A stretch of DNA of 16,901 nt from Spirochaetaceae bacterium. GTDB lineage: Bacteria; Spirochaetota; Spirochaetia; Treponematales; Breznakiellaceae. Both the position numbers and the translations under genes were made by a program. The notes below the pieces were generated by a model. It was not told where the DNA came from. It ran no database searches and worked only from the letters and a program-made list of their open reading frames with translations. Every line of letters starts with the position of its first letter. Within the stretch, counting starts at the first letter, position 1. Of the stretch, positions 4,533 to 16,901 are shown in pieces. Location: the NCBI GenBank assembly GCA_031284085.1, contig JAITAM010000071.1:1-16901 (forward strand), written 5' to 3'.

Positions 4533-6020
4533 ATGAGAAGGAATTCTTTCAGACTTTCCTCACTGATAGCAGGCATCTGCGTCGTGATTTATCTTGCGGC
4601 GATTGTTTTTACCGTAGTTAGAATTACTACTATTATTTCGGACCGGCGTATCAAAGCGGAGCGTGAATTCAAAGAAATAAGTAATGTAGTTTCTGTCGGC
4701 GACAAAGGTTTCATGGATGAAGTAAGTAAAAATCTTGTGCAAGATGCACTTACTAGATCAGAAACTTTACAAGGTCTTATTGTTTCTGGATCGGATAATA
4801 CCTATCCTTTTGAGCGGGAGCAGGGGATTGTCATTCCGGTACATAACGGTAATGGGTTCCAATTTGCAGGATGGCTAGGCTTTTCAAAAGAACCTCTTTT
4901 TGGGAAGCTTTCTGACAGCTCTACCATCTCTGCAATATATAGTATTTTTGATTACCAACTGCTTATCTCTATTTTTAAGCAAAGTCTTATCGCCATCCTC
5001 GCTGCATTCTGCATAGCATTTATAGGCCTGCTCGTACAATTCTTTTCCGGAAAATCTTCTTCGCTTGAGCCGGTGGGAAAAGATGGCTTTTTAGCTGATG
5101 ATGATCTTGATCTACCGGAGCTAGATTTTGACGATCAATCGGATGATCTTGATTTTGATCTACCGGAGCTGGACTCAGACGATCAATCGGATGATTTAGA
5201 CTTTAGTCTGCCGGAGCTGGACTCAGACGACGAGCAATCGGACGATCTGGACTTTATTTTGCCGGAGGAAGATTTTGATAGTCAATCGGATGATTTGGAC
5301 TTTAGTCTACCGGAGGAGGATTTTGATACTCAACCAGATAATCTTGACTTTGATCTACCGGAGCTGGACTCAGGCGACGATCAATCGGATGATTTAGACT
5401 TTAGTCTACCGGAACTGGACTCAGACGACGATCAGTCGGACGATCTGGACTTTACTTTGCCGGACGAGGATCCTGATACTCAACCGGATGAGCAGGAAGA
5501 TACCGCTAATACAAAGGAAAAGGAGCAATCCTCTCATCAGGTATTGGCAGCGCAGAGCGACACAGCCCCACACCTTATATCGGTATTACAGCAATGTACT
5601 GCACAGGACAATGACCTTGCCTGTGTTATGATAGAATCAAAGGAAGTGGGAGGCTCAGAGGATCTGTATCAGAGTATTGCTGACGAAGCGCTTAAATTCT
5701 TTGAACTAACCGATGGTATTTTCCAAAAAGATAAACGAGGAATGTCGATCATTCTTCCGGGAGAAACACTGGAAGGATGTCGAGACAAGGTTGAAACATT
5801 CCATAAACAAGTCCTTGACAAGCACGGCAGCGTTTTTTGGGAACCCTCTGATGTATGTATAGGTATTAGCGCACGACAAGGTCGGGATATAGATGCAAAT
5901 CGGCTTTTGTTAGAAGCATCAACCGCACTAAAAAAAGCGCTATCTGACATAGAAAATCCCATCATAGCGTTCAAAGTTGACCCGGCACGCTATAAGGCTT
6001 TTCTTGATCAAAAGAAATAA
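4533..6020 (+). CDS. Membrane protein with acidic repeat linker and degenerate GGDEF-like domain (495 aa)
   Basis: The predicted architecture is TM1 at residues 12-34, an extracytoplasmic segment about 35-145, TM2 about 150-172, an acidic repeat linker about 189-319, and a C-terminal domain about 342-485. The linker holds about eight units of 16-17 residues resembling DDQSDDLDFSLPELDSD. The C-terminal domain follows the diguanylate cyclase pattern: TDGIFQKDKRGMSIILP aligns without gaps to the canonical DLVFRYGGDEFAILLP stretch, putting DKRGM (400-404) where GGDEF should be, and VCIGISA and the final LLLEASTALKKA helix also fit. The RxxD inhibitory-site Arg is absent as well. Synthesis of c-di-GMP is therefore not expected; a binding or scaffolding role is possible. 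There is no clear ribosome binding site at 4533. The 3' end overlaps the convergent neighbour by 13 bp. Confidence 0.7.
   Translation: MRRNSFRLSSLIAGICVVIYLAAIVFTVVRITTIISDRRIKAEREFKEISNVVSVGDKGFMDEVSKNLVQDALTRSETLQGLIVSGSDNTYPFEREQGIVIPVHNGNGFQFAGWLGFSKEPLFGKLSDSSTISAIYSIFDYQLLISIFKQSLIAILAAFCIAFIGLLVQFFSGKSSSLEPVGKDGFLADDDLDLPELDFDDQSDDLDFDLPELDSDDQSDDLDFSLPELDSDDEQSDDLDFILPEEDFDSQSDDLDFSLPEEDFDTQPDNLDFDLPELDSGDDQSDDLDFSLPELDSDDDQSDDLDFTLPDEDPDTQPDEQEDTANTKEKEQSSHQVLAAQSDTAPHLISVLQQCTAQDNDLACVMIESKEVGGSEDLYQSIADEALKFFELTDGIFQKDKRGMSIILPGETLEGCRDKVETFHKQVLDKHGSVFWEPSDVCIGISARQGRDIDANRLLLEASTALKKALSDIENPIIAFKVDPARYKAFLDQKK
5098..5490 (+). repeat. In-frame coding minisatellite (48-51 bp units)
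   Basis: Roughly eight imperfect direct repeats inside the 4533 gene encode the acidic linker. The conserved DNA core is close to CAATCGGATGATCTTGA followed by a CTACCGGAG-type core. Unit lengths are 48 or 51 bp, always a multiple of three, so copy number could change without breaking the frame. Units differ by synonymous and conservative changes, which indicates selection for the acidic LPE/DDLDF pattern. Confidence 0.85.
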
Positions 6021-11543: not shown

Positions 11544-12217
11544 GCATTGACTGTACGAAGCTAACCCGTCAGTACTTGGAGCGCCTTACTACGAGGGAGC
11601 TTTTAGTATTAGCGGACTCAATGGCTTTAGATGTACCAGCCGGCTTAGATAGAATATTTATTATTGAAGAGCTTATAAGCCTTGGCCAAGAGCCGCCTTT
11701 TACTGATGATTTGACTGAGGATGAGATAGAAAAAACCACGTTGATACAAAATGATAATTCAAAAGCCGTTGCATTACCGACACAGTACAACATTACGTTT
11801 ATACATATTATGATCCGAGATCCCTTGTGGGTTTTTGTATTTTGGGAAGTGAAATCGCACGATCGGGAAATCCTTGAAAAAAATCCAAGCTTTGACGGAT
11901 ACTACCTTAAAGTTACTCCTCTTCCTCTTCTTTCAGAAGAAGATGTTTTTACCGTAACGGTAGGCGCCGCAGATAACGCATGGTATTTAAGTTTTCCGCC
12001 GGAACAAGGAACATTTCAAGTTGCATTGTGCGCCCACTGTGGACAAGAGGAAGTTATTTTGATTGTCTCAGACCCTTTTACGCTGCCCAATCTATTTGAT
12101 CCGGCTCATATACACAACAACAATCCGCTCATACAATTATCCGGTTCAGGATTTATGCCAATTCTGCATAAAGTAGATCGAGTTCCTAGAAGGACGCGAT
12201 CCGGTAATACACAATAG
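11540..12217 (+). CDS. DUF4912 domain-containing protein (225 aa)
   Basis: Residues about 14-48 (LERLTTRELLVLADSMALDV) resemble the SAP or Rho N-terminal helical module often found ahead of DUF4912. The DUF4912 core follows: LPTQYNITFIHIMIRDPLW (79-97), FWEV (101-104), and a later beta-rich part with NAWYLSF and FQVALCAHC. There is no signal peptide, so the protein should be cytoplasmic. The start overlaps the OTC stop by 4 nt, and the GH57 gene follows after 10 nt. DUF4912 genes are known to occur beside GH57-type genes, and a polysaccharide-related role has been assumed, but the biochemical function is not established. Confidence 0.8.
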   Translation: MSIDCTKLTRQYLERLTTRELLVLADSMALDVPAGLDRIFIIEELISLGQEPPFTDDLTEDEIEKTTLIQNDNSKAVALPTQYNITFIHIMIRDPLWVFVFWEVKSHDREILEKNPSFDGYYLKVTPLPLLSEEDVFTVTVGAADNAWYLSFPPEQGTFQVALCAHCGQEEVILIVSDPFTLPNLFDPAHIHNNNPLIQLSGSGFMPILHKVDRVPRRTRSGNTQ

Positions 12218-14235: not shown

Positions 14236-15249
14236 TTACAGCTCTTCCCATGAAAAACAAAGCACCTCTTTGATCTCGGTAGAATCAGTAAAAAGCATAC
14301 AGAGCCGGTCAAGACCAAGCGCCATACCCGCACCGGCAGGCAGCCCATGCGAGAGCATTTCCAGATACCGCTCATCATAGCATACCGGCGCTATATTGTT
14401 GTTTTTCCGGTATGTATTCGCCTGCTCAAACAATGCCCTCTGCATATAAGCATCACATAAAAAAGGAAACCCGTCGGCAATCTCAATGCCGGCAATAACT
14501 ATCTCAGTCCTGTTGATCCACTTTGCATCAAGGGACTCGCAATCGGAAGAAGTGGTCATTGCGGCAGGCCATTTTTTTATCAGCACAGGCGCATCAAAGC
14601 CCAGAGCTTTAATCGCATTGTCTAAGAGAGCCGATATCAGTATACCGCTCTGCTCCGCAGGAATTTCTTTAGGACAGAGTTTGGCACGCTGAATTAAAGA
14701 AATTATATCCGCAATACACCATTCATCCGCAATTTCAAGACCGTACTGTGTATAAAACACCTCTTGAAATGTCATGGTTTTCCACGGCGTTTTTAAGGAT
14801 ATGCGGGCATTTTGATAGTCAAGATAATCGGAGTCAGGGTGCAATTCGTGATGTATCGCCACAATAAGATTCGCCGCATCATCTTCAATGGCAGGAAGCG
14901 AAGCTGCGGTGCGCGCCCACTCAAGCATAGTGAATTCAGGATTATGGGTTTTGTCAAATTCATACTCTCTAAAGTTTTTTGTTACGGTAAAGACTTTATC
15001 AAAACCTCCTGCGATCATCCTTTTGATGTGATACTCTGTCGAGGTGGTTAAATAGAGGCCGGCTTTACCTGCTATTTCAAACGACTGAACCGCCCTATCC
15101 GGCGTAGTTCCAAAAACCAGCAAAGGAATTTCAGCCTCAAAAAACCCTTGCCTCTTATAAAAGAGGCGTATCAAATCTACAATCTTTTGCCTGATGTATA
15201 GTTTTTCCTTGCGGCTTATGCCTTTTTTATCTTTGTCCGACCACAACAC
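14236..15249 (-). CDS. epmA: EpmA/GenX-type lysyl-tRNA-synthetase-like protein (337 aa with GTG start)
   Basis: The family ligates (R)-beta-lysine or lysine to a conserved lysine of elongation factor P and lacks the tRNA anticodon domain of true LysRS. Class II synthetase motifs are in order: motif 1 near RQGFFEAEIPLLV, then LTTSTEYHIKRMI, motif 2 TKNFREYEFDKTHNPEFTML (90-109), GIEIADGF, and motif 3 GMALGLDR (308-315). The length suits the family (E. coli EpmA is 325 aa). The open frame continues to an ATG at 15474, but that start lies in a dispersed repeat and adds 75 poorly conserved residues. GTG 15249, with AGGAGA 4 nt upstream, is preferred. TTG 15246 or a longer form cannot be excluded. 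It is monocistronic here; EF-P and EpmB genes are not in view. Confidence 0.85.
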   Translation of the reverse strand: MLWSDKDKKGISRKEKLYIRQKIVDLIRLFYKRQGFFEAEIPLLVFGTTPDRAVQSFEIAGKAGLYLTTSTEYHIKRMIAGGFDKVFTVTKNFREYEFDKTHNPEFTMLEWARTAASLPAIEDDAANLIVAIHHELHPDSDYLDYQNARISLKTPWKTMTFQEVFYTQYGLEIADEWCIADIISLIQRAKLCPKEIPAEQSGILISALLDNAIKALGFDAPVLIKKWPAAMTTSSDCESLDAKWINRTEIVIAGIEIADGFPFLCDAYMQRALFEQANTYRKNNNIAPVCYDERYLEMLSHGLPAGAGMALGLDRLCMLFTDSTEIKEVLCFSWEEL

Positions 15250-15455
15250 GGCATCTCCTAAACAATAATCTCCTTCTTTCAGGCCGAAGGAAAAAAGCAA
15301 TGCGTCCGCGGCGCAGTCTGTTTCATTCTTTGTTATGAGTATACAAACAAGAACAATGTGCAGCCGCTCCTTGTCTAAGATAGGCACTTGTACTGTTTTT
15401 AACAAGCATATTCTTACGGGTATATGTTCTCTGTCCCACTTTTCTATCAGGCAAA

Positions 15456-15635
15456 CAGCCACAGGCTGTTTCAAAGCAGGCCAGCCTGTTTCAAAGGTTG
15501 TTGTATCGGGAGTGGTGTACGGCTTTCCGCCTGCAGGCCAGCCTGTTTCAAAGCAGCCGCAGGCTGTTTCAAAGGTTCTTGTATCGGGAGTAGTGTACGG
15601 CTTTTTGCCTGACAGCAGGCCAGCCTGTTCTAAAC
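15456..15635 (-). repeat. Two inverted copies of the REP-like dispersed repeat
   Basis: Reverse-oriented copies lie at 15456-15531 and about 15536-15609, with a tail to 15635. Each has a CAGCCacaGGCTG or CAGCCgcaGGCTG stem, then the core CAAAGGTTGTTGTATCGGG (or GGTTCTTGTATCGGGAG), then GGCtttttGCC. An extra AGGCCAGCCTGTTTCAAAG module is inserted. They lie immediately upstream of the EpmA-like gene; the open frames passing through them are repeat artefacts. Confidence 0.85.
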
Positions 15636-15731
15636 TTTCGGTATTGGTATCAAGGGCGACTACGACTCTTTGTCTGACGGAAGCAGTCAGAGGTCTGACC
15701 TGTTTTGCCTATGTCTGTCCCTACCCCGATA

Positions 15732-15777
15732 GTGATACGGGCATATCATCAATGGTGATACGGGCATATCACAGGCA
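15732..15777 (+). repeat. Two-copy 23-bp tandem repeat
   Basis: GTGATACGGGCATATCA occurs at 15732-15748 and 15755-15771, exactly 23 bp apart. Each copy has dyad symmetry, with GTGATA and TATCAC arms in the second copy. The period equals that of the three larger arrays to the right. Confidence 0.8.
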
Positions 15778-15879
15778 GGGATAAAGACGCAAGTATATCC
15801 CGTTCTAAACTTCAGCCTGACTCTTCATCCTTCGGGTCGGAGGTCTGACCTCTCAGGTCGGAGGTCTGACCCTGTTTGC

Positions 15880-16052
15880 GTATTAGGCTCACACTCGTCC
15901 ACGTATTAGGCTCACACTCGTCCACGTGTTAGGCTCACACTCGTCCACGTGTTAGGCTCACACTCGTCCACGTGTTAGGCTCACACCCACCCACGTGTTA
16001 GGCTCACACCCGCCCACGTGTTAGGCTCACACTTGTTAGGCTCACACTCGCC
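15880..16052 (+). repeat. Tandem array, 23-bp unit (about 7 copies)
   Basis: Six full units at 15880-16017 are followed by two truncated ones (16018-16034 and 16035-16052). The conserved part of the unit is TTAGGCTCACACTCGTCCAC. Units 3-7 join through a CACGTG palindrome; units 1-2 have CACGTA. Units 5-6 diverge in the TCGTCC part. There are no spacers, so this is not a CRISPR array. Confidence 0.95.
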
Positions 16053-16084
16053 TTCGGAGGTCTGACCCTTTGGGCAGGAGGTCT

Positions 16085-16140
16085 CAGCCACAGGCTGTTT
16101 CAAAGGTTCTTGTATCGGGAGTGGAGTACGGCTTTTTGCC
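16085..16140 (-). repeat. Inverted copy of the REP-like dispersed repeat
   Basis: It has a CAGCCacaGGCTG stem, the TTTCAAAGGTTCTTGTATCG core and a GGCtttttGCC stem, in the same orientation as the 15456-15609 copies and opposite to those at 1159-1397 and 16846-16901. It lies between the first and second large 23-bp arrays. Confidence 0.8.
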
Positions 16141-16187
16141 TGACAGTAGGCACAGACTGTTTTGGACAGGAGGTCTGACCTGATTTT

Positions 16188-16450
16188 GCGGTGGAAGCTC
16201 TCCACACTATGCGGTGGAAGCTCTCCACACTACGCGGTGGAAGCTCTCCACACTACGCGATGGAACGTCTCCACACTATGCGATGGAAGCTCTCCACACT
16301 ATGCGGTGGAAGCTCTCCACACTATGCGGTGGAAGCTCTCCACACTATGCGGTGGAAGCTCTCCACACTACGCGGTGGAAGCTCTCCACACTACGCGATG
16401 GAAGCTCTCCACACTACGCAGTGGAAGCTCTCCACACTACGCAGTGGAAG
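16188..16450 (+). repeat. Tandem array, 23-bp unit (11 full copies plus a partial)
   Basis: Eleven uninterrupted 23-bp units run from 16188 to 16440, and a 10-bp partial twelfth unit ends at 16450. The core is GTGGAAGCTCTCCACACTA. Within it GTGGA and TCCAC are inverted arms around AGCTC. Variation is limited to GCGGT/GCGAT/GCAGT at the start, C or T at the end, and one CG swap in unit 4. Because 23 is not divisible by 3 and the unit lacks stops, all three plus-strand frames stay open, which creates spurious ORFs. Confidence 0.97.
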
Positions 16451-16465
16451 GTGTGAGCCTAATAC
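16451..16465 (-). repeat. Inverted single copy of the 15880 array unit
   Basis: GTGTGAGCCTAATAC is the exact reverse complement of GTATTAGGCTCACAC, the opening of the 15880 and 15903 units. It abuts the right end of the 16188 array, so that array is flanked by inverted copies of its neighbour's unit. Confidence 0.85.
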
Positions 16466-16576
16466 ATGACAGGTATAGCCGGAGGACTGACCCCTTAGCG
16501 AAATTTAGAGTCGTATTCTATAACCTGAAAGCCTTGTTTGCAGGCAGAAAGTCGTAGATCACCCTTTGATACCTAC

Positions 16577-16806
16577 GCTAGTACCGGAATCCGTCCTACA
16601 CTAGTACCAGAGTCCGTCCTACGCTAGTACCAGAGTCCGTCCTACGTTAGTACCAGAGTCCGTCCTACACTAGTACCAAAAACCGTCCTACACTAGTACC
16701 AGAATCTGTCCTAGGCTAGTACCGGAAACCGTCCTAGGCTAGTACCAGAATCCGTCCTACACTAGTACCAGAATCCGTCCTAGGCTAGTACCAAAAACCG
16801 TCCTAC
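16577..16806 (+). repeat. Tandem array, 23-bp unit (10 copies)
   Basis: Ten exact-length units run from 16577 to 16806. The conserved core is CTAGTACCAGAGTCCGTCCT, with variable bases at the first dinucleotide (GC, AC or GT), the CAGAGT/CGGAAT/CAAAAA centre, and the last base (C or G). It ends just before a GGAGGACTGACC motif. No dyad is conserved across units, apart from CTAG and GTAC. Confidence 0.97.
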
Positions 16807-16845
16807 ATTGCAACCGGAGGACTGACCTGCCTGCGCCTGCTTCTT

Positions 16846-16901
16846 GCAGACGAAGAGTCGTACTCTACTCCCGATACAACAACCTTTGAAACAGCCTGCG
16901 G
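16846..16901 (+). repeat. REP-like dispersed repeat copy, cut by the window edge
   Basis: The core CCCGATACAACAACCTTTG is followed by CAGCCTGCGG at the window end. The opening stem is degenerate (GCAGACGAAGAGTCG). A further degenerate fragment (CAGGCAGAAAGTCG) lies at 16541-16554. Orientation is plus, facing the inverted copies at 15456-16140. Confidence 0.8.

Follow-up and report, generated by a model that had tools for sequence, protein, structure and literature searches.

Tandem arrays of constant unit length and variable sequence in a Spirochaetaceae genome and their relation to REP-like motifs

Four neighbouring tandem arrays near the end of a Spirochaetaceae contig repeat at the same 23-bp period, yet their units cannot be aligned with one another, which raises the question of whether something in this organism measures repeat length independently of sequence. 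The stretch of DNA analysed, hereafter the window, is the 16,901-nt contig C132 of a draft genome (G000; 1.78 Mb in 247 contigs, 67.6 % complete), and the island that carries the arrays runs off the end of this contig. Both TRF and inspection of the sequence bore out the initial annotation of the four arrays, and the dyads that it had read in two of the units (GTGATA/TATCAC and GTGGA/TCCAC) are present as well (Table 1). For arrays 2–4 chance is of no concern; array 1 is weak by itself, yet 1, 4 and 4 copies are found at other loci that share its flanks. Its dyad copies lie at 15732-15749 (with a final T) and 15755-15772. Array 2 closes with a 15-bp step (16015-16048 by TRF), whilst array 3, whose family recurs in other G000 contigs, ends in an inverted piece of the array-2 unit, such that arrays of different families are joined; similar junctions are found in contigs C220 and C71. 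Copies of either GAGGTCTGACC or GAGGACTGACC lie between and beside the four arrays. A REP consists of a foot tetranucleotide plus a hairpin; the GGTC-N-GACC form of the motif, as read from the linear sequence, amounts to a hyphenated palindrome around a single central nucleotide.

Table 1. Arrays, REP-like motifs and the neighbouring gene in the window (positions are those of the window)
Feature	Position	Strand	Description and basis
Class II (D/K/N) tRNA-synthetase-like protein	14236..15474	-	PF00152, E 7e-44; start codon uncertain
REP-like motif GAGGTCTGACC (reverse GGTCAGACCTC)	15690..15700	-	Sequence; motif flanks RAYT genes
Array 1	15732..15783	.	23-bp unit, dyad GTGATA-N6-TATCAY; TRF 15734-15783, 2.2 copies, score 56
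Two REP-like motifs	15840..15871	-	Starts 21 bp apart, 7 bp ahead of array 2; sequence
Array 2	15879..16048	.	23-bp unit CGTGTTAGGCTCACACTCGTCCA; TRF 15879-16033, 6.7 copies, score 261
REP-like motif	16057..16067	-	Directly past array 2; sequence
REP-like motif	16170..16180	-	7 bp ahead of array 3; sequence
Array 3	16188..16450	.	23-bp unit, dyad GTGGA-AGCTC-TCCAC; TRF 11.4 copies, score 442
Inverted array-2 unit piece GTGTGAGCCTAATAC	16451..16465	-	At the end of array 3; sequence
Variant REP-like motif GAGGACTGACC	16482..16492	-	Interval between arrays 3 and 4; sequence
Array 4	16572..16806	.	23-bp unit CCTACGCTAGTACCAGAATCCGT; TRF 10.2 copies, score 337
Variant REP-like motif GAGGACTGACC	16817..16827	-	10 bp past array 4; sequence

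A DNA search with positions 15462-16901 as the query returned 200 matches in G000, many of which are dispersed island repeats. One such repeat, CAGGCTGTTTCAAAGGTT..TGTATCGGGAGT..GTACGGCTTTTTGCCTG, occurs in both orientations and is plentiful in the islands, being found at 15462-15629 of the window and in many G000 contigs. The window had no Rfam match at gathering thresholds, and phage and plasmid collections gave 0 matches for positions 15650-16901. Elsewhere in the window, positions 5111-5491 hold an Asp-rich repeat that is coding and lies within a predicted protein of 495 aa without a Pfam match, and the contig starts with a DDE transposase fragment (PF01609; 1-414).

Array periods were tabulated in sampled contigs from four sources: G000, two further members of its genus (G001 and G002) and a named relative, Im510_bin15, a Spirochaetaceae bin that was reached via the synthetase-like gene (81 % identity over the best segment) and that carries three 22-bp arrays in 7.2 kb. 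The G000 sample comprised 20 contigs chosen by number, 19 reached via matches to the window, which are a biased set, and the window itself. Across the four sources, 80 of the 121 arrays with at least three copies have a period of 21–23 bp (39 at 21, 11 at 22 and 30 at 23). Arrays of many different periods elsewhere, with no excess at 23 bp, had been named in the initial annotation as the sign of coincidence; an excess near 23 bp is what these sampled contigs hold, and the suggestion that units unrelated in sequence do share a length, which points to a length-measuring agent, was right, as was the attention paid to dyads. The view that 23 bp alone is special was not right, as it is one of two preferred lengths, 21 and 23, both of which are common in G000, and the preference is genome-wide rather than local. 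The 20 G000 contigs picked by number, 126 kb in all, hold 15 arrays with at least four copies; 11 of these fall at 21–23 bp and the remaining four at 75 (one) and 84 (three). Clustering the 83 of 121 arrays with a period of 19–25 bp gave 47 unit families, of which, in this set limited beforehand to 19–25 bp, 27 are at 21, three at 22 and 17 at 23. A few unit lengths dominate across unrelated units, as is the mark of constant-size repeats. All but two of the families (45/47) are confined to one of the four sources, meaning that there are several, largely species-specific families. Of the 22-bp families, two carry the REP motif or a close variant and the third is common to G000, G002 and Im510_bin15 (seven arrays). 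The members of this shared family centre on GAGATGCGGGAGTCTC and include loci L043, L055, L081 and L091 (G000), L074 (G002) and L035 (Im510_bin15). As for coding status, a period of 23 is not a multiple of three and one of 21 is; by a crude open-frame check, at least one 21-bp array, that at 1992-2363 of L053, looks coding.

Such arrays are unevenly spread among relatives. The density of arrays with at least four copies is 12.9 per 100 kb in G000 (11.9 in the contigs chosen by number), 22.3 in G001, 12.3 in G002 and 0 in G003, a fourth member of the genus. Self-comparison of 108.8 kb of G003 (∼6 kb of it counted twice) revealed no 21–23-bp array of at least three copies, against 96 arrays at 21–23 bp in 630 kb of G000–G002; at the RAYT loci of G003, described below, TRF reported a single 72-bp array. 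Among 13 other sampled genomes, six were without arrays of at least four copies and seven had 1.2–6.3 per 100 kb, at various periods. The densest of these seven, G006, belongs to another genus and has arrays at 42, 46 and 63 bp together with a 23-bp repeat of 2.3 copies; dyads such as TCCCA-ctacgc-TGGGA are seen in its arrays.

Loci with the same flanks differ in length by approximately whole units. For array 1, the distance between anchors is 49 bp in the window (two copies), 96 bp in both C193 and C113 (four copies each) and 26 bp in C105 (one copy). In a second family the anchors are 17 or 155 bp apart, a difference of six 23-bp units, and in a third they are 23 or 206 bp apart, the 183 bp being eight units minus one bp. 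These are three of five flank comparisons, all with copy numbers that derive from draft assemblies; F1a anchors were uninformative and F5 right flanks differ, the F5 comparison ending at the fourth locus and the third F1b locus (C197) being without a right flank. The direction from single to many copies is also a matter of reading, since loci with one copy could have contracted from more. In C197, a locus shares the right flank of array 4 but not its left flank and holds two matching units, and arrays are therefore also joints of rearrangement. A possible seed for slippage is found at the short F9 locus, where the direct repeat CCTTGAGAC recurs 23 bp apart. In G000, direct repeats of at least 12 bp outside detected arrays fall at 21–23 bp in 33 of 124 cases (nine at 21, four at 22, 20 at 23); the same count is weak in G001 (6/36) and G002 (6/29). 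The length preference may thus act at the birth of an array, unless these short repeats are remnants.

The units are enriched for dyads. A set of 58 units was assembled from 40 families, one of the 41 motif-free families having been excluded as coding-like, and from 18 short repeats picked by eye out of 54 rows; REP-like repeats and obvious family copies were excluded from the latter, some of which are perhaps remnants of larger arrays and a few of which are at 22–25 bp. The mean longest perfect arm was 4.00, compared with 3.26 in shuffled units and 3.21 in flanking DNA, a value reached by 0/300 controls of either kind. For 21-bp families alone, 0/300 shuffles and 0/300 flank controls reached the observed arm length; for 23-bp families alone, 3/300 and 5/300 did so. 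Of the 58 units, 13 have arms of at least 6; among 3000 control 22-mers the share is 2.3 %. With periods of 42 and 63 counted as 21, and 46 as 23, in this and in the covariation, shared-word and cross-family identity tests, arm positions depart from the consensus less often than other positions in 23 of 31 arrays; collapsed to 23 families, arms are less variable in 16, and 3/2000 rotations gave a value as low. Because dyads exceed controls and their arms are the less variable part of the unit, the sequences suggest that the dyad matters, as a hairpin or as a binding site. Arm covariation is weak (885 cells: five compensatory, 28 of G-T type, 78 broken and 774 unchanged), and the rare compensatory changes do not decide between these two roles.

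The explanation that we favour, and to which we give an even chance as a whole, is one of genome-wide satellites that grow by whole units, with the help of hairpins, in islands shared with a transposase. According to this proposal, the four arrays would be members of a set of largely non-coding satellites, constant in unit length but not in sequence, found throughout the genome and sharing their islands with the REP-like ends of a multicopy RAYT transposase. Arrays would begin as short direct repeats flanking a small hairpin and would gain or lose whole units by hairpin-assisted replication slippage or by unequal exchange, whilst RAYT activity and recombination would duplicate and rearrange the islands. 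Four elements of this account are observations in themselves: the lock on periods 21 and 23, the excess and low variability of dyads, the steps of approximately whole units and the enrichment of array ends near REP-like motifs, set out below. Slippage alone predicts no such lock, and the proposal does not extend to what fixes the step. It also has to contend with the scarcity of compensatory arm changes (five cells against 78 broken) and with the 35 of 58 families in which no perfect arm reaches 5. A bolder form, in which DNA is copied 21 or 23 nt at a time, and seldom 22, by a sequence-blind, dyad-favouring amplification, strikes us as rather unlikely; if true, satellites would be made from almost any small hairpin by an enzyme or a replication structure that carries its own ruler.

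A DNA-binding protein that contacts the half-sites of the dyads, and for which arrays with a 21- or 23-bp spacing are selected, for instance in nucleoid organization, is a serious rival, if on balance an unlikely one. A role of the DNA-binding-protein kind has been proposed by Subirana and Messeguer for constant-size repeats (PMC8161180), and the enriched, less variable arms would fit it. Across 70 non-REP families there is also a weak hidden shared signal, AGTC being present in 24 (11.4 expected) and AGACT in 13 (3.2 expected), the latter count lying above the 95 % level of the shuffled maximum and speaking for such a protein. Against this, dozens of units with differing arms are hard to fit to one sequence-specific protein, the spacing between half-sites spans 7 to 15 bp, a perfect arm of at least 5 is lacking in 35 of 58 families, and 23 bp is not two whole turns. 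The initial annotation had further proposed iteron-like binding, or partition or replication control, for which we found no support: iterons occupy a single locus beside a replication initiator gene, whereas these arrays occur at many loci, and no replication, partition or initiator protein was present among the ten window proteins scanned. CRISPR loci differ in that their repeats are split by unique spacers, whereas the units here abut head to tail.

A further alternative is that the RAYT transposase itself builds the arrays, cutting single hairpin units and putting them back in side by side. There were 34, 33, 97 and 46 matches to PF01797 (Y1) in G000–G003, respectively, versus 0–6 in 15 other genomes, counts that take in partial genes and at least two matches (L155 and L156) that do not align with the RAYT queries; some further genomes in the family are also rich in Y1 matches. 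The RAYT genes themselves (loci L158–L248) make up the bulk of the 33–97 matches per genome in G000–G003. Both multicopy proteins tested exceeded the cut-off of NF047646, REP-associated tyrosine transposase, and the one RAYT protein searched against PDB matched TnpArep (4er8; E 7.6e-6). Within 120 bp upstream or 35 bp downstream of the genes, in the 88 of 90 loci that were aligned, GGWCAGACC was found in the sense orientation at 22/30 loci in G000, 22/29 in G001 and 11/14 in G002 (55/73 in total); at the G003 loci it was found in 0/15 in sense and in 11/15 in the other orientation. From this placement we take GGWCAGACC to be the cognate repeat of these multicopy transposases. Of 136 ends of non-REP arrays, 36 have the motif within 40 bp, whereas the rate at 11,883 random positions is 1.9 %; these controls include coding DNA, so the enrichment partly reflects the intergenic location of both. 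Some arrays are in fact tandem REPs, as direct building would have it. Yet 100 of the 136 ends lie more than 40 bp from the motif (median distance 1733 bp), and its pattern is matched by only six of the 47 families; the units of the other 41, and thus most array units, are not the REP. The REP-bearing arrays of G000 are, in addition, looser in length (22–25 bp). A tree of 74 RAYTs gathers 20 of the 21 G000 rows into a single clade, a grouping that sits poorly with the many unit families, and all 24 G001 rows into another; those of G003 fall in three places. Such arrays are missing from the G003 sample, for all its RAYT genes and motifs, and in 79.6 kb of G006, which does have arrays, the motif is matched once. 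In 60.7 kb of Y1-rich genomes from elsewhere in the family (G022, G032, G124 and G113) no 21–23-bp array of at least three copies was found; G124 has one 63-bp array of 3.3 copies that resembles 3 × 21, and G113 two 21-bp repeats of ∼2 copies each. Because G003 and G006 dissociate gene and motif from arrays, RAYT seems to accompany the arrays without being enough to cause them, and direct building by the transposase appears improbable.

Common descent, in which copies of a few ancestral arrays spread through the genome and drifted in sequence whilst keeping their period, we consider quite improbable. The 22-bp family of G000, G002 and Im510_bin15 exemplifies links of this kind between loci and genomes, and the mean best identity across families exceeds that of shuffled units, at 0.633 versus 0.604 for 21 bp and 0.627 versus 0.566 for 23 bp (0/60 in both cases); the excess is small, however, and loci with one copy, together with short local repeats, hint at arrays that arose in place. 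An artefact of assembling a fragmented, incomplete metagenome bin, with a contig that stops inside the island, is a most implausible reading, as the same pattern is found in three further assemblies, one of them named, copies of a unit differ, and arrays of up to 999 bp lie inside contigs. Two other candidates were dismissed. Argonaute was considered as a source of ∼22-nt pieces, and no Piwi domain was found in the 19 genomes searched. Loss of the hairpin nuclease SbcD gave a pattern that would not explain the arrays, with a match above the cut-off in G000, weak ones below it in G001 and G002 and none in G003, all of these genomes being incomplete.

The initial annotation knew of no named system with this layout; in fact, the kind is published, and these arrays are another, informative member of the bacterial tandem repeats whose size is constant and whose sequence varies. 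In excerpts of that account, such repeats have units of 20–23 or 52 nt, variable sequence and unknown function, and those of 52 nt often hold short sequences plus their reverse (Subirana and Messeguer, PMC8161180). Shared with these excerpts are the near-constant unit, several unrelated families per genome, species specificity and, probably, a mostly non-coding location; relative to them, the present arrays add the coexistence of two odd lengths (21 and 23) alongside a scarcity of families at 22, a measured enrichment and lower variability of dyad arms, a measured nearness to RAYT and REP, and copy-number differences between loci with the same flanks. Leptospira interrogans, likewise a spirochaete, has several non-coding satellite families that moved around the genome; its tabulated lengths, which cover only those above 30 nt, include 46, 46, 46 and 69 nt, all multiples of 23, and another of 37, a likeness in length (PMC6749651, in part). 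As in REP/BIME-RAYT systems, where BIMEs are often tandem, Y1 transposase genes are flanked by dispersed short repeats; in the sections of those sources that treat the gene, RAYT is usually present as one full-length gene per REP type, in contrast to the multicopy Y1 genes here (33–97 matches), and the motif is absent from most array units (PMC8266576, PMC6006769). The tandem repeats of Borgs similarly arise locally, with partial flanking repeats seen as seeds, but, in the relevant part of that report, these are archaeal elements with near-perfect units of 18, 20, 21 and 36 nt (PMC9879509). Literature searches with four motif strings gave nothing on bacterial repeats among the matches listed, and those on treponeme and termite tandem repeats gave, among the matches listed, no title or abstract with the phenomenon.

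The question that these arrays address is why some bacteria hold many unrelated tandem repeats of fixed length. This lineage offers several handles on it: members of a single genus that are rich or poor in arrays, loci that differ by whole units between shared flanks, dyads of low variability and the contrast between 21 or 23 and 22 bp, all of which lend themselves to tests of a mutational ruler against selection by a protein.
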